NCBI GenBank assembly: GCA_001787405.1
Contig: MFWV01000001.1
Span: forward strand, 1-62,056
Source: Candidatus Pacebacteria bacterium RIFOXYA1_FULL_38_18
Lineage (GTDB): Bacteria; Patescibacteriota; Microgenomatia; UBA1400; PJMF01
Direction: 5' to 3'
DNA: 62,056 bases
The translations under genes and the position numbers were made by a program. Shown piece after piece: positions 15,023 through 26,967 of the stretch (position 1 is its first letter; every line of letters starts with the position of its first letter). The notes under the pieces were generated by a model that was not told where the DNA came from, searched no databases, and was given only the letters and a program-made list of their open reading frames with translations.

Positions 15023-16720
15023 ATGAAACCCCAAGCAGTAATTGTCGCACGTGTATCTTCTTCGAAACAAGCCAATGAGAACGATTCGCCTAATCAACAA
15101 ATGAGAGATGGTATAGATTTTGTTGGAAAACAAGGATGGGTAGTTGACAGGACAATGAGTTTTGTAGAATCAGGAAGAAAATCAGAAAGAGAGTTTTTTA
15201 ATGAGGTTATTGACTATTGTGTTGATAGAAAAAACAATATTTCTTATTTAGTTGCAAGGGATATTAGTCGCTTTACTCGTGGAGGCGGCGTTGAGTACAG
15301 GCAGTTGAAAGATAGATTAAAAAAAGCAGGCGTCCAACTTCAAGATACGCAAGGGACGATACAATCAGACAAGAACTCAATGGAAAAGTATGGGCTTGAG
15401 TATTCCTGGAGTCGTTATTCTCCATCTGAAGCAGAGGAAATAAAACAAGCTGACCAAGCAAAAGATCAAGTTAGGCAATCTTTAACACTAATGTTGGGTG
15501 CAGAAATTGAATATGTTAGAGAGGGATATTGGAACAGGAGACCTCCATATGGGTTTGCAAATAAAAAGATTCAGACTGAGGAGCACGGCATAAGAACCAT
15601 TCTGGTTGAAAAACCCAGCGAAGGTATATTTATAAAGAAATTGTTTAGTATGCGATCAAAAGGGATTCATTCTGATGAAGAAATAGTAAGAGAAGTAAAT
15701 GCGTTGGGTTATAAAAGTAGGAAGTATTTCAGAAGAGATAAAAGAACCAAAAAGCCTATTGGTGCGGGAGGAGAAAAACCTCTTACAATCAAACAACTTC
15801 AAAAATATGTTAAAAATCCTATCTATGCAGGGGTAATCTGTGAAAAATGGACTCACTACAAGCTCGTTAAGGGCAGATTTAATGGTTTGGTTGACGTAGA
15901 TACCTTTAATCAGGCAAATGTCGGAAAGGTGATGATTAATGAAGACGAGACGGGAGTCTTCTTCTTAAAGCACGGAAAGCAAAATGAGGATGGGAGAATA
16001 ATAAAAAGAAGAACTAACAACAACCCTTTTTACCCTTATAAAAATGTTGTTTTATGCCCTATCTGCAAAAATCCACTTAAAGCGAGTGCGTCTACAGGAA
16101 AACTGGGTAAAAAATATCCTGCCTACCATTGCAATAGGAATCACGAATATTGGAGGAAATCGAGAGAAGATCTCCACGAAGTTGTTTATTCTTTTATCAA
16201 GAAGATACGTTTTAGCGATGAGTACATTACGTTATTTGAAGCCTCTTTTCTTGAGGTATGGAAAAATAAAAGAGATGAGACTCTGATGGAAAGTGAACAA
16301 GCAGAGAGAAATGTTGTTGATCTATTAGTAGAGCAAAAAAGTATTCGAGATGCAATCAAGATAACTACGAACAAGGCTATGATTCGTGCTTATGAAGATG
16401 ATTATGAAAATATTGAATTAAAAATACAGTCTGCCAGAGAGTTCAGAGCAGGCAAAGAAAAAAGGGAGCTTGACGCCAAGCTCGCAGTTAAAAGTGCAGT
16501 TTACTTAATGGAACACCTAGAAGAATTACTGATAGATCAGGAAAATCCCCTACAACAACAACAGTTGTTCGGACTGATGTTTGAGGAATTCCCTAATTAC
16601 AACGATTTACTTAGTGGAACACCAAAATTATCCCTTGCTTTCAAGCTAAATCAACAAAATGTTTTGTTAAAATCCGATATGGTGACCCCACGGGGAATCG
16701 AACCCCGGTTGCCGGGATGA
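15023..16720 (+). CDS. Large serine recombinase (resolvase N-terminal + recombinase + Zn-ribbon)
   Basis: AVIVARVSSSKQANENDSPNQQ, ISYLVARDISRFTRGGGVEY, LTIKQLQKYVKNPIYAGVI, CPICKNPLKAS...CNRN; C-terminus MVTPRGIEPRLPG is encoded by the antisense of tRNA-Glu. Confidence 0.92.
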   Translation: MKPQAVIVARVSSSKQANENDSPNQQMRDGIDFVGKQGWVVDRTMSFVESGRKSEREFFNEVIDYCVDRKNNISYLVARDISRFTRGGGVEYRQLKDRLKKAGVQLQDTQGTIQSDKNSMEKYGLEYSWSRYSPSEAEEIKQADQAKDQVRQSLTLMLGAEIEYVREGYWNRRPPYGFANKKIQTEEHGIRTILVEKPSEGIFIKKLFSMRSKGIHSDEEIVREVNALGYKSRKYFRRDKRTKKPIGAGGEKPLTIKQLQKYVKNPIYAGVICEKWTHYKLVKGRFNGLVDVDTFNQANVGKVMINEDETGVFFLKHGKQNEDGRIIKRRTNNNPFYPYKNVVLCPICKNPLKASASTGKLGKKYPAYHCNRNHEYWRKSREDLHEVVYSFIKKIRFSDEYITLFEASFLEVWKNKRDETLMESEQAERNVVDLLVEQKSIRDAIKITTNKAMIRAYEDDYENIELKIQSAREFRAGKEKRELDAKLAVKSAVYLMEHLEELLIDQENPLQQQQLFGLMFEEFPNYNDLLSGTPKLSLAFKLNQQNVLLKSDMVTPRGIEPRLPG

Positions 16721-21030: not shown

Positions 21031-21672
21031 TCAGCGACGGCGAAAAAAATTGACGATTTTGAACCACCAAGAGTTCTGACGCATAAATCGTTCTTGGAGA
21101 TAAGGCAATAATAATTTGTAAAAAGCTACTCCTGCCAGAAGAACGATGGTACCGATGAGAATGGTCAAATCAAATTTATTTTCTAGGAACCAAGCTACAC
21201 TTTCTCCAAAAATAGCAATAGAACCAGTGATGAGCATGTATCGTGTTCCCCTGCCCAAAATAGAGGCCAGTAAAAATCTGCGGAAATTCAGATCGAAGAC
21301 TCCAGCAGAAAGAGTGAATACTTTAAATGGAATAGGAGTGAAGGCAGCGATAAAAATTGCTTTTGAGTCATATTTTTGAAAAAGTTTTTGTACAGTAGTG
21401 ATATGGTCTTGTTTGAATAATTTATGCAAAATAGGCTTGCCTCCTTTTTTCCCCAACCAGTACCCAAACATGGCTCCCAAAACAGAAAAGAGTGTAATAA
21501 AAAGTCCATACCACAGTGAGAATTGGGGAGTGGCCAGACTCATGGGAATAACCATTACCTCTGGAGGAATGATAAAAAAAGCACTTTCTGAAAAAGAAAA
21601 CAATCCCAAGATTGCTAAAGCATAGGGACTAGTCATCCAAACCTGAACGGCTTCACTGGTAAAAAAACTCAT
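21031..21672 (-). CDS. DedA / SNARE-associated (YqaA-like) membrane protein
   Basis: FSESAFFIIPPEVMVIPM...GAMFGYWLGKKGGKPI...FKVFTLSAGVF. Confidence 0.8.
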   Translation of the reverse strand: MSFFTSEAVQVWMTSPYALAILGLFSFSESAFFIIPPEVMVIPMSLATPQFSLWYGLFITLFSVLGAMFGYWLGKKGGKPILHKLFKQDHITTVQKLFQKYDSKAIFIAAFTPIPFKVFTLSAGVFDLNFRRFLLASILGRGTRYMLITGSIAIFGESVAWFLENKFDLTILIGTIVLLAGVAFYKLLLPYLQERFMRQNSWWFKIVNFFRRR

Positions 21673-21739: not shown

Positions 21740-23683
21740 TTAAGCTGTCGGTTCACTAGGATTTGGAACGGGAGTGCTGGTTGGCTCAGTGCTTCCAGTT
21801 GTTGGTGGTTGAGCAGCCCCGATTTCTTTTAGAGTGCTATCAATGGTTTGTTGTACCTCGGCTTCCAGTGGTTTCTCTGTTGCTGGCTGATCAATTGCTG
21901 GTTTTGGCTCTGCTGTTTGCTGTTCAGTTGGTTTTGGCTCAGTCGGCTTGGGAGTAGTCATGGGAGTTGCAATGGGAGGAGTGTTCATGGGTGCTTCTGT
22001 GGGAGCTGGCATTGGAGAGACCCCAGTATTGGTTGTAGAAGCAGGTGGAGTTGTTGATTCAGTTGGCTTGGGAGCAGTCACAGGCATTGGTTCGACTGCT
22101 GGATTTAAAGTAGGAACGGTTAGTGTTGGTTCCGGGGTTGCTGGTGTTGTTGAGCTAGGAGCTACTGGAGTTTGTCCCAAAGCTACTTCCTCTGTAATAC
22201 CTTGACTACCAGTCAATTCATTGGGTGCTGATGCGGGTTGTGGCATAGAGGGTGAGCTTGCTGGTATTGCTGGTGTTGGAGTTGGCTCAGATGTTAAAGT
22301 TGGCTTTGGTGTGGGTACTGTTTGACCACTTGATTCACTGGTAGGTTCAGTGGTGACTTGATTGTCATCAGTAGGCTCATTTGCCAAATTGGTTTGTTGA
22401 TTGAGTTGCATCTCAGTTCCTTCCCTAATAATTTTTTCTAAAGCTAAATAAATATCAGCTAGTCGATTATATTTAGCCACGGCCTCTCCGCGATTGGTGG
22501 GTCCAAATTTAACAAACTCGGCTCCAATTCCTACCGCAAAATCAGCTAGAAAATCATCATTGGTTTCACCAGTACGCTGGGAAACCACGATACTCCAACC
22601 AGCTGCTCTTGCTATTCTGACGGCTTCTAGCGTTTCTGTCAAAGTACCTATCTGGCTGGGTTTGACTACTAGAGTATTGCCGACCTGGTTTTGAGTGGCT
22701 TGCGCTACCAATTTGGGATCAGTGGCAGTCATGGCATCAACGGCTATCCGAGTGGTTTGACCTAAATCGGCAGTAAAGGTTTTCCAAGAATTGATGTCTT
22801 TGATCAGAAATGGATCTTCAAAATAGGTAAGACTATATTTCTTTTGTAAATCTTGGTAATACTCCAATAATTCTTTTTCTGTGTAACCAGTGTTTTTATC
22901 TTTGATGAGGTATTTATTTTTTTCTTGTAATTGTTCAGCTCCAGAGTCAACACCAAAGAAAAAATCTCTGGCCAAAATATAAGAAGTTTTACGAGCTGCT
23001 TCAATAATAAATTCAAAAACATCAGTATTTTTTTGTAAAGAGGGGGTGAAGCCACCCAATTCACCAGTAGAATAATTGGCTTTTTGATCTTTGAGGATTT
23101 TTTGCAAAGTAGCTCGCAGAGAACTCTCTATTTCCAAACTGACCCGATAATCAACGTGGCTGGCTGGAATGACCAAGAATTCTTGGAAATCAAGATTGCC
23201 AGAACCGTATTGCCCGCCATTGATCAAACCATAAAGACAAACCGGCAGAGCAAGATGGTCAGTAAGCTGATATTGATTGATTAAATATTGATAAAGAGGG
23301 AAATCGCTGGCTACTGCTCCAGCTTTCATCACTGCTTGGGAAACGGCACTCAGTGTATTAGCTCCCACCTGAGCTTTATTGGGGGTACTATCCAATTGTA
23401 AAAGTAATTGATCAATGCTGGTTTGATCTTGAGGATTTTGTCCAATCAGTTGGGGGGCAATGGTTTTATTTATTAAATTAACCGCTTTTTGCACTCCCCT
23501 GCCTGCCATATGTTCTGGATCTTGATCAAAAAGAGCCTTGGCAGCATGAGGATATTGAAGAACACTGTTGGGTACACTGGTATCTACTAGTTCACCACTA
23601 TCCAGTTCTAGATCAACCCAAATAGTGGGATTACCCATGGAATCAAGAATCTCTTTGGCCTGCAGACTTTTAATGGTAGCCAT
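21740..23683 (-). CDS. eno: Enolase-like protein with divergent active site and ~215-aa Pro/Thr/Ser-rich C-terminal extension
   Basis: AKEILDSMGNPT, KGV-like RGVQKAVNLIN, VGANTLSAVSQA, FQEFLVIP, IGTLTETLEAVRIARAAGW, SQRTGETNDD; tail ...TVPTPKPTLTSEPTPTPAIPASSPSMPQP... Confidence 0.85.
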   Translation of the reverse strand: MATIKSLQAKEILDSMGNPTIWVDLELDSGELVDTSVPNSVLQYPHAAKALFDQDPEHMAGRGVQKAVNLINKTIAPQLIGQNPQDQTSIDQLLLQLDSTPNKAQVGANTLSAVSQAVMKAGAVASDFPLYQYLINQYQLTDHLALPVCLYGLINGGQYGSGNLDFQEFLVIPASHVDYRVSLEIESSLRATLQKILKDQKANYSTGELGGFTPSLQKNTDVFEFIIEAARKTSYILARDFFFGVDSGAEQLQEKNKYLIKDKNTGYTEKELLEYYQDLQKKYSLTYFEDPFLIKDINSWKTFTADLGQTTRIAVDAMTATDPKLVAQATQNQVGNTLVVKPSQIGTLTETLEAVRIARAAGWSIVVSQRTGETNDDFLADFAVGIGAEFVKFGPTNRGEAVAKYNRLADIYLALEKIIREGTEMQLNQQTNLANEPTDDNQVTTEPTSESSGQTVPTPKPTLTSEPTPTPAIPASSPSMPQPASAPNELTGSQGITEEVALGQTPVAPSSTTPATPEPTLTVPTLNPAVEPMPVTAPKPTESTTPPASTTNTGVSPMPAPTEAPMNTPPIATPMTTPKPTEPKPTEQQTAEPKPAIDQPATEKPLEAEVQQTIDSTLKEIGAAQPPTTGSTEPTSTPVPNPSEPTA

Positions 23684-23731
23684 ACCACTACTATAAAGGT
23701 TGGCTCAACAGATGTGAAGAGAGAGGGTTTT

Positions 23732-24817
23732 CTACTTCCCTAGCTCTTCTTTGAACTGATCCACAAATGGAACGGGGCAGGGATCGATACCCTCCAACAT
23801 GGCAGTATAAAAATTGGTATAAGACATGAGGGTAATGAGTTCAAAAACTTGGGTTAGTTTAGTATCGGCTTGCAACTCAACGGCCAAGGTATCAATCTGG
23901 TTTTGTTCGACAATTTCCTGAGTTAGCTTCATTCTTTTTTGATTTCTGGGTTGATAAAACTCGGAATTGAAAAACAAAAAGACATGACTACCGATATTGC
24001 TAGCTGGAAAACGCAAACCCTCCATCAAATGATGATTAAGCTCCGGCACCACTTTGAAGTCTGCAAAAAGCTTGGCGTTTTCATTAAACTGATTGGTAGC
24101 TACATGGGTAGCTCCTACCAGAAACTCACTCGCTACTAGGATTGGTCGGCGCTCAAGACAAGTGTAAGCCAAGATTTTGGCTTGGTTTTCTGCTTGTTTG
24201 GTTTCCGGTCCCAGTTTTTCTGCAGTGCGAATGATGGTGGTGATAACTTCTTCAATTTCCGCATCAGTGATCTTCACCAAACCTGCTTTGACCAATAAAC
24301 CAATCAAGCCGATGATGGCATAGCCAATAGCCATGCGTGGTTGATTAGAGGGGTTGTGGACAGGATCGATAAGATAGGTAGGGTAATTTTCTGTTTTAGC
24401 AATTTCTGCCAACTTGCCACCAGCAGTAATCACGGCTACTTGAGCGCCTTTGTCTTTGGCCTGCTTAGCGCAAAACAACACTTCCTCGGTAGAGCCAGAA
24501 TAACTCGATAAAATTACCAGCGTGTCTTCATCTACGTAAGCGGGCAAGTTATAGCCGTTATAGACCTCGAAAGGTTCTGGCAGTCGGTCGGCGTATAAAT
24601 GTTTAAAAACATCAGCGCCCAGAGCTGAACCCCCCATGCCTGCTACCACTACGTTATAGATGTTGCCTGAGGGGGAGAACTTAACTGACTGAGTACCTTC
24701 CCAAGCATGTCTAACCTGATCAGCCAATGCTTCGACAGAGCCTAAAACATTTGATTTATCTAGTTTGCTGATTTCTTCGCGAGAATCCAAAACAGAATTT
24801 TTTTTAGTATTTTCCAT
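23732..24817 (-). CDS. Bifunctional phosphoglucose/phosphomannose isomerase (SIS domain)
   Basis: VVVAGMGGSALGADVFKHL; LSSYSGSTEEVL; NQFNENAKLFADFKVVPELNHH. Confidence 0.88.
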   Translation of the reverse strand: MENTKKNSVLDSREEISKLDKSNVLGSVEALADQVRHAWEGTQSVKFSPSGNIYNVVVAGMGGSALGADVFKHLYADRLPEPFEVYNGYNLPAYVDEDTLVILSSYSGSTEEVLFCAKQAKDKGAQVAVITAGGKLAEIAKTENYPTYLIDPVHNPSNQPRMAIGYAIIGLIGLLVKAGLVKITDAEIEEVITTIIRTAEKLGPETKQAENQAKILAYTCLERRPILVASEFLVGATHVATNQFNENAKLFADFKVVPELNHHLMEGLRFPASNIGSHVFLFFNSEFYQPRNQKRMKLTQEIVEQNQIDTLAVELQADTKLTQVFELITLMSYTNFYTAMLEGIDPCPVPFVDQFKEELGK

Positions 24818-24841: not shown

Positions 24842-26263
24842 CTAGTCCAAGGCGTGAGTATTTACTCCTTTTGTCCAATCAATTTCCGGATGAGCACTCA
24901 AGATTTTTTTAAGAGTTTTCTTCATGTTCTCATATTGAGCTTGAGTTTTACCTTCAAACTTGACCGTGATGTATGGTCCGTTTTGGGAAGCACGCACGAT
25001 CGCCATCTCCTCAGCTGTATCCATGCGAATACCATCGATATCTACGTATTTGGCGTCAGGCCACTGTTTTTTAAACTCAGTGCGGATGACGGTATCGATG
25101 AATTTAAACTTAATTTCATCAGCCAAACCAAACTTAATTTCTGGACTACTGACATATTTAGCTAGTTGCTCAGCTGCTTGGCTCAGACTCATTTTTTTAC
25201 GTTCCAAATAAGCGAGTAAGCGCAAGCTGGCATAAGCTCCGTCATCGTGACCATAAAAATTATCCATGAAGAAAATGTGGCCAGATAATTCGCCACCAAA
25301 AGGTGAGCGCTCTTCTTTTACTTTAGCTTTAATAAAGGAGTGACCAGTCAGCCACATCACTGGCTTGCCACCAGCTTCCTCGATTGCTTCAGTCACTTGT
25401 CTAGAACAGAGGGTGTTGTAAACAATGGGTGCGCCAGGAAGGAATTCCAGTACATCTTTGGCAAACAAAGCCACGATGCTATCCATCCACAATACTTGCC
25501 CTTTTTCATCCACTACGGCCATGCGATCACCATCGGTGTCATAGGCAAAACCCAAATCAGCACCATGTTTTTTGACTCCTTCTGCTAAACGATTCAACAC
25601 TTTCTCTTCAGTCGGATCAGGTGCACCTAGAGGGAAGTTGCCGTCTGGCTCACAGTTTTGCTGGATCACTTCCAGACCAGCCTTTTCGAAAATCTGTGGA
25701 TAGAAAACTCCAGAACCAGTATTGCAAGCATCCACTACGATTTTCCATTTTTTTTGTAAATCAAAGTATTTAAGAATTTCATCACGATAGATGGGGAATA
25801 AATCGAAGTCACGATTCGAGCCCTGACCTTCAGAGAACTTCCCTTTTTCTACCAGCTTACGCATCATTTGAATTTCTTCAGTGATCATAGTGTCGGAATA
25901 TCCCACTCCCAGCTTCACGCCGTTAAATTCTTTAGGATTATGAGAAGCAGTAATCATGGCACTACCTTTAGTTTTAAATTCATAGGAAGAAAAATAAACA
26001 ATTTGGCTCATACTCAAGCCCAAGCTAATTGTATCGATTCCTCCATCATTTAAACCTTGAATGAAAGCCTTGGTGTATTGCTCGCTGGTGAGTCGGTTGT
26101 CATGACCGACTGCTGATTCAGCGATTCGTCTTTCAGCTAGAAAAGTGGCATAAGCTCTGCCCAAGGTGTAAAAAACATCCTCGTTGAGTTGTTCATCAAC
26201 CACTCCCCGAATGTCATAGCCGCGAAAAATGGTGGGGTCAATAGTTTTGATTAATTTGTACAT
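24842..26263 (-). CDS. Phosphomannomutase/phosphoglucomutase
   Basis: IFRGYDIRGVVDEQL; ITASHNPKEFNGVKLG; FAYDTDGDRMAVVDE; GELSGHIFF. Confidence 0.93.
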   Translation of the reverse strand: MYKLIKTIDPTIFRGYDIRGVVDEQLNEDVFYTLGRAYATFLAERRIAESAVGHDNRLTSEQYTKAFIQGLNDGGIDTISLGLSMSQIVYFSSYEFKTKGSAMITASHNPKEFNGVKLGVGYSDTMITEEIQMMRKLVEKGKFSEGQGSNRDFDLFPIYRDEILKYFDLQKKWKIVVDACNTGSGVFYPQIFEKAGLEVIQQNCEPDGNFPLGAPDPTEEKVLNRLAEGVKKHGADLGFAYDTDGDRMAVVDEKGQVLWMDSIVALFAKDVLEFLPGAPIVYNTLCSRQVTEAIEEAGGKPVMWLTGHSFIKAKVKEERSPFGGELSGHIFFMDNFYGHDDGAYASLRLLAYLERKKMSLSQAAEQLAKYVSSPEIKFGLADEIKFKFIDTVIRTEFKKQWPDAKYVDIDGIRMDTAEEMAIVRASQNGPYITVKFEGKTQAQYENMKKTLKKILSAHPEIDWTKGVNTHALD

Positions 26264-26286: not shown

Positions 26287-26967
26287 TTATAAGTTTGCTC
26301 CCAAGAGATCAAGCTCCTGACCCACTGACAAAAAACTGCCAGAAGTTTTGGCATTGATGTCAATGGTGTAGAGCTGATGGTGAATGCTGAGTAACTGAGC
26401 TAATGAAAAGCCTTGGGCTTGTTTTTTGAGTTTGGCAATGACGAAGGGCGGGCCACCGGGCGTGGTGCCGTCTTTAATTTGAATCAAGAGTCTGACTTGA
26501 CGAACCAACATGGCAAAACAAGTATGTTCTCCATCCGCACTTTGGGCTTTTTGAGAAAGCTCAAAGTATTTTTGCTTGGCCGTTTGTGGACTAAAAGCAT
26601 CCAGCCAAGCAAACAAAGTATTGGTCAATTTGAATTGTTCCACCTGAGCTTTGGGAAATTTTTTGAGCATGGTGGGAGTGAGATCTCTTTTTTCCCACAA
26701 AATAACCGTCACATTGGCTTTACTAACAATATCGATTAATTGGTTTTTTTTGGCACTGCGAGGTAAAGAATGCAGTTCTTCAATAATGACCATCTGTTCC
26801 GTACCAAATAATGAAGTTTTTTGCAATGCTGTTTCCAGCATGGCTGGACTGAGTTGTTTGGCAGTCAGTCGCTCAATTTCTTTGCCATTGAATTTGGCTT
26901 CCGTCAGCAACTTCACCAATCTTTCTCTAGATTTTATGACATTTTCGCCATGTAGAATAATTGTCAT
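26287..26967 (-). CDS. holA: DNA polymerase III delta subunit-like (short HolA)
   Basis: MTIILHGENVIKSRERLVKLL...TSLFGTEQMVIIEELHSL...CFAMLVRQVRLLIQIKDG. Confidence 0.65.
   Translation of the reverse strand: MTIILHGENVIKSRERLVKLLTEAKFNGKEIERLTAKQLSPAMLETALQKTSLFGTEQMVIIEELHSLPRSAKKNQLIDIVSKANVTVILWEKRDLTPTMLKKFPKAQVEQFKLTNTLFAWLDAFSPQTAKQKYFELSQKAQSADGEHTCFAMLVRQVRLLIQIKDGTTPGGPPFVIAKLKKQAQGFSLAQLLSIHHQLYTIDINAKTSGSFLSVGQELDLLGANL

Follow-up and report, generated by a model that had tools for sequence, protein, structure and literature searches.

A conserved operon enolase of Microgenomates that lacks the catalytic glutamate: a candidate pseudo-enolase

The gene at positions 21740-23683 (minus strand) of the analysed DNA (hereinafter the window, the whole 62,056-nucleotide stretch of contig MFWV01000001.1 of Candidatus Pacebacteria bacterium RIFOXYA1_FULL_38_18) encodes a 647 aa protein, denoted Eno2, which retains the enolase fold and, judging from its active site residues, is strongly predicted to be catalytically dead as an enolase. 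The observations presented here suggest a long-preserved job for this protein other than that of an enolase. To the more specific reading, that a displaced native enolase became a non-dehydrating pseudo-enolase which probably still binds PEP or 2-PG and plays a regulatory or scaffold role, we assign an even chance. No description of this paralogue was found in the open-access literature, to which the search was confined.

The enolase fold, already recognized in the initial annotation, is apparent from profile matches far above the Pfam cut-offs, namely Enolase_N (residues 4-134, 128.1 bits against 35) and Enolase_C (residues 145-412, 199.8 bits against 21.5). As delineated by profiles, alignment, AlphaFold and Foldseek, the enolase-fold core comprises residues 1-415 (22439..23683, minus strand); its AlphaFold model has pLDDT mostly above 90 and superposes on solved enolase structures, and all the best Foldseek matches are enolases, with TM (target) of 0.88-0.94. 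The location on the minus strand, the restriction of the enolase homology to the core, the Pro/Thr-rich tail that follows, the family-wide loss of E211, the status of Eno2 as the native operon copy and the decay of a neighboring PEP-synthase homologue are all additions to that annotation.

Comparison with the Bacillus subtilis enolase and 86 relatives (yeast numbering throughout) reveals the substitutions R14M, S39N, G40S, S42L, H159Y, D210E, E211L, N347S, H373Q and S375T, along with the conservation of Q167, E168, D246, E295, D296, D320, K345, Q348, R374 and K396. In the numbering of Eno2 itself, the principal changes are M16 (R14), N39 (S39), Y159 (H159), L209 (E211) and Q369 (H373), and the principal conserved residues are E168, D246, E289 (E295), D316 (D320), K341 (K345) and K392 (K396). 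Each of the losses claimed previously (R14, the Mg-binding Ser of loop 1, H159, E211 and H373), as well as each of the residues claimed to be retained (E168, the Asp/Glu/Asp Mg ligands, K345 and K396), is borne out by the alignment. Thus, the Mg ligands of the enolase superfamily (D246/E295/D320) and the base K345 are present, whereas Leu replaces E211, the acid/base for the loss of the C3-OH in active enolases (EC 4.2.1.11), and, in the mobile loops and at the second Mg site, H159, H373 and S39 give way to Tyr, Gln and Asn, respectively. E211 is essential in yeast enolase. Largely the same losses recur in three relatives (G001, G002 and G010), so that neither chance nor sequencing error can account for them. 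The dimer salt-bridge positions are changed in the window protein too (R8K, E20W and R414D), but an Eno2-specific loss of the salt bridges was rejected as a candidate because R414 varies also in intact operon enolases.

The closest experimental parallel comes from the Mycobacterium tuberculosis enolase, for which a published study (PMC10619443) reports that E204, the equivalent of E211, is essential, the E204A mutant being non-functional, and that crystals of this mutant (7e4f) contain PEP in the active site and lack the second Mg; one mutant, apparently S42A with loss of the second-Mg serine, kept about 5% activity. Eno2 resembles E204A in the loss of the same position from a protein that folds and, in the case of the mutant, binds PEP without turnover. 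However, E204A is an engineered single mutant, whereas at least four further active site changes are present in the window Eno2.

With enolase proper (TIGR01060 / PF03952+PF00113), Eno2 shares the full-length fold, the Mg triad, K345, K396, E168 and R374, but it differs in the absence of E211, H159, H373, S39 and R14, the long disordered tail and the coexistence with an intact enolase. The barrel, the Mg ligands and the Lys base are also common to the MR/MLE-type enzymes (MenC, muconate cycloisomerase, Ala-Glu epimerase); nevertheless, the sequence of Eno2 is far closer to that of true enolase, exceeding the cut-off of the NCBIfam phosphopyruvate hydratase equivalog (360 against 300 bits), whereas the best MenC/MLE/epimerase equivalog match is at 31 bits against 200.65. 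Loss of key catalytic residues, conservation of the fold and the ligand-site residues, purifying selection and the presence of an intact, active paralogue in the genome are features that Eno2 has in common with pseudoenzyme regulators and scaffolds. Unlike the case of the usual pseudoenzymes, it is the native operon copy that is predicted to be dead and the active copy that appears to have been acquired, and the neighboring PEP-synthase homologue has decayed as well.

The host genome (831,884 bases in 13 contigs, 96% complete) belongs to Microgenomates, close to 'Ca. Pacebacteria'. The search for a second canonical eno and for gpm and pyk proposed in the initial annotation was successful on all counts: Eno1 (L001), encoded on contig 3, keeps all checked catalytic residues, differing among the positions read only by D210N and L343V; a single iPGM gene lies about 4 kb from it; and one pyruvate kinase is present. 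Accordingly, the genome can account for these steps of lower glycolysis without Eno2. No PEP-utilising enzyme was detected in this genome. The two enolases are 36.6% identical and belong to different clades, so that an origin of Eno2 as a recent duplicate of the canonical enolase of its own genome was rejected. We also observe a distinct enolase clade, the main enolase in several genomes (L040, L043, L045, L047, L054, L056, L058, L060, L068 and L071; also L178-L180), with R14G, S39Y and S375G, where the Mg-binding Ser of loop 1 is Tyr and E211, H159, K345, H373 and K396 are intact.

Across the family, sampled with 30 genomes (G000-G029) of about 0.7-1.3 Mb, Eno2 is present without exception, two of the copies being fragments at contig ends, and a second enolase accompanies it in 29 genomes, the exception being G025, which is 76% complete. 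None of the 29 copies in which the position is readable has E211, which is replaced by V, L, N, T, D, C or G. By contrast, K345, K396 and E295 are invariant among the 28 full-length copies (K396R occurs outside this set, in L101), with D246 kept in 25, D320 in 23, E168 in 26, H373 in 19 and H159 in 21. The window protein belongs to a subclade that is among the most altered, and in three Eno2 proteins of the family (G005, G006 and G024) two Mg ligands are lost through D246N/Q together with D320C. The switches specific to Eno2 (P145C, A178S, L239F and A393P) include no new conserved catalytic residue. Between Eno2 cores of the same genus, which are about 71% identical, comparable to Eno1, dN is 0.22-0.26, slightly below the 0.29 of the intact enolase in the same genomes; because of the saturation of synonymous sites, we give no dN/dS ratio. 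The low dN of the core at saturated dS indicates that Eno2 is a maintained protein, and together with the family-wide retention leads us to reject the status of a relic or pseudogene.

The site of Eno2 corresponds to an ancestral operon with the order holA-PMM-PGI-(PEP synthase)-eno-iPGM. In the window, profile matches and conserved operon neighborhood identify a phosphoglucose/phosphomannose isomerase (SIS + bact-PGI_C; 23732..24817), a phosphomannomutase/phosphoglucomutase (24842..26263) and a holA-like gene (DNA polymerase III delta; 26287..26967), all on the minus strand, and a VTT-domain membrane protein, identified by profiles (21031..21672, minus strand), occupies the place of the iPGM gene found in most of the family. 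All Eno2 proteins are monophyletic (SH-aLRT 100) and nested in the operon-enolase clade of the order. Other families of the order possess a sole enolase in much the same PMM-PGI-PEP synthase-enolase-iPGM order, and E211 is preserved in 10 of the 11 enolases that occur as single copies. Given this placement and the gene order shared with families that have a single intact enolase, Eno2 is the native copy. In the exceptional genome, G048 (L080), the only detected enolase carries E211G; in its relative G037 no enolase was detected. Monophyly of Eno1 is rejected (AU p 1.5e-30), and hence the intact enolases would have been acquired separately several times. In the part of their article available to us, Jaffe et al. 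(PMC7304191) report that CPR enolases, those of Microgenomates included, fall into clusters, suggestive of lateral transfer and loss, and make no mention of a paralogue without catalytic residues.

Several other genes of this neighborhood are pertinent. The PEP-synthase/PPDK homologue upstream of the operon enolase keeps the phospho-histidine motif GGQTSHAAIV outside the family wherever this stretch is covered, except in f2. Within the family, the motif is lost in all 13 copies, the whole mobile-domain stretch is missing in 8 of these, and a strong PEP-utiliser match elsewhere in the genome is found only in G001 and G008. In the genus of the window organism, both this homologue and the iPGM have left the operon, so they are not obligatory partners in cis. 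The operon iPGM of the family is probably active, given that its sequence keeps the metal and substrate residues (the K336 column, ambiguous in the alignment, was left out) and that frequently no other iPGM is found in the genome; by the same residues, decay of iPGM in parallel with Eno2 was rejected for this family. In many genomes of the order (e.g., L081, L048, L050 and L053), Ser62 of iPGM, the phosphorylated nucleophile, is Thr (GNTETGH); this variant is the only iPGM detected in several genomes and occurs also alongside an intact enolase. A promoter-like site (TTCACA-17-TATAGT; 23683-23718, minus strand) ends 7 bases ahead of the ATG of Eno2, a spacing that would be compatible with a leaderless transcript; across the whole region, such sites are fewer than in shuffled sequences. 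Upstream of the region studied, a putative serine-recombinase-like ORF of 565 aa (15023-16720, plus strand; start MKPQAVIVARVSSSKQ) is possibly a mobile element.

The C-terminal tail of Eno2 (residues 416-647, 232 aa; 21740..22438 with the stop codon, minus strand), delineated by composition and AlphaFold, is a Pro/Thr/Glu-rich, low-complexity region (21% P, 20% T) that is predicted to be disordered. Near its end, AlphaFold predicts a short helix (residues 607-622; 21818..21865, minus strand) with pLDDT of only 57-73, the motif of which, Q..ID.TL.EIG, is conserved in all four long-tailed proteins (G000, G001, G002 and G010). Several other family members have shorter tails, many have none, and the tail is much less constrained than the core (dN about 0.6). 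The operon iPGM of L049, L051, L048, L034 and L061 has a Pro/Ser/Thr-rich N-terminal extension of 100-200 aa, which occurs where the preceding Eno2 bears a similar C-terminal tail.

Decayed operon-type enolases are not limited to this family. A scan of the genome collection identified further cases in three or four CPR lineages, in Falkowbacteria (E211L, H373Q), Levyibacteriota (E168Q, E211D, H373A) and Roizmanbacteria (D320G, H373Q, K396R, plus a milder H159Y case); in the tree, each of these enolases joins its own lineage, away from the Eno2 of the family. All four genomes with a decayed operon enolase also encode a second one in which every residue checked is intact; of the 24 control genomes, whose enolase is intact, 2 have a second enolase and the other 22 have a single one (Fisher p 0.0007, or 0.003 without the mild case; given that the genomes do not constitute independent samples phylogenetically, these values are indicative). 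The same association within the 52 relatives (p 9e-5) is driven mainly by the one family of the window. In the Falkowbacteria genome, a truncated iPGM of 281 aa that lacks the iPGM_N domain comes after the decayed enolase (L144:4001-6100).

Taken together, these data are best explained if Eno2 is the operon enolase that this Microgenomates lineage received by vertical descent, with the dehydration job passed to separately acquired Eno1 enolases. From established enolase chemistry, a protein without E211 (and in this case, also H159, S39 and H373) would not convert 2-PG to PEP at a useful rate. By analogy with the E204A mutant, Eno2 should bind PEP or 2-PG without interconverting them, and might still close around either ligand with one Mg, given that K345, K396, E295 and usually E168, D246 and D320 remain. 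The other active site residues vary among Eno2 proteins, and accordingly, one shared ligand is not certain. Least certain are the subsequent steps, whereby such a protein, binding its ligand without turnover, might provide the sugar-phosphate module of PGI, PMM and iPGM with a sensor or scaffold, and the Pro-rich tail with its terminal helix might be a tether or docking segment. Our preference for a regulator or scaffold is based on the conserved place in the operon and on the invariance of the lysines that contact the ligand.

The initial annotation proposed a pseudo-enolase or a repurposed superfamily enzyme, and as a pair these two options find support in the presence of the second enolase, iPGM and pyruvate kinase and in the essentiality of the E211 equivalent in M. 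tuberculosis. The repurposed enzyme, the main rival although on balance unlikely, would put the retained Mg/Lys half-site to new chemistry, with K345 abstracting the alpha proton of a Mg-bound carboxylate and a different second half of the reaction (epimerase, lyase or other). Strong purifying selection and the retention of the Mg triad with K345 and K396 in the window protein and most other Eno2 would be in line with this possibility, and the weak additional similarity to profiles of MenC and the MR/MLE type reflects only the shared fold. However, the diverse replacements of E211 bring in no common acid/base, the Eno2-specific switches supply no new conserved catalytic residue, and three members have lost two Mg ligands. 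A purely structural or moonlighting role without a ligand (at the surface, in an RNA degradosome or in a cytoskeleton) seems quite improbable: the disordered tail and the precedent of enolases as structural partners (the RNase E complex 5ohg is among the Foldseek matches) speak for it, but it does not predict the invariance of K345, K396 and E295, we saw neither a secretion nor an anchoring feature in Eno2, and the tails are variable.

That Eno2 is a still-active enolase with an altered active site we consider very unlikely, notwithstanding its score above the phosphopyruvate hydratase cut-off and the E211G in the sole detected enolase of G048, in view of the essentiality of the E211 equivalent in the M. 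tuberculosis enolase (PMC10619443) and of E211 in yeast, the second enolase beside Eno2 in 29 of the 30 genomes and the simultaneous absence of five active site residues from the window copy. Already disfavored by the rate analysis, a decaying relic heading for loss has the slimmest chance of all; a functional replacement does exist and the neighboring PEP-synthase homologue is decaying or lost, but Eno2 persists throughout these small genomes, the full-length copies have open frames, and their cores are as similar as those of Eno1.

Returning to the preferred pseudo-enolase, a broader and tentative extension, itself more doubtful than probable, is that the ancestral lower-glycolysis operon was converted as a unit: the enolase and the PEP-synthase homologue would now be non-catalytic ligand binders in a sensing or scaffold complex with the sugar-phosphate enzymes, catalysis would have moved to horizontally exchanged enzymes, and a similar conversion of enolase would have begun independently in other CPR lineages. 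Redundant genes are expected to be lost from genomes about 1 Mb in size, and yet a crippled enolase is kept in place across more than 20 genera, often adjoining a similarly crippled PEP-synthase homologue. If the pseudo-enolase interpretation is correct, CPR metabolic models that label Eno2 'enolase', as its passing of the NCBI equivalog cut-off invites, count a dead protein, and the family would provide a natural series for the conversion of a central metabolic enzyme into a pseudoenzyme.
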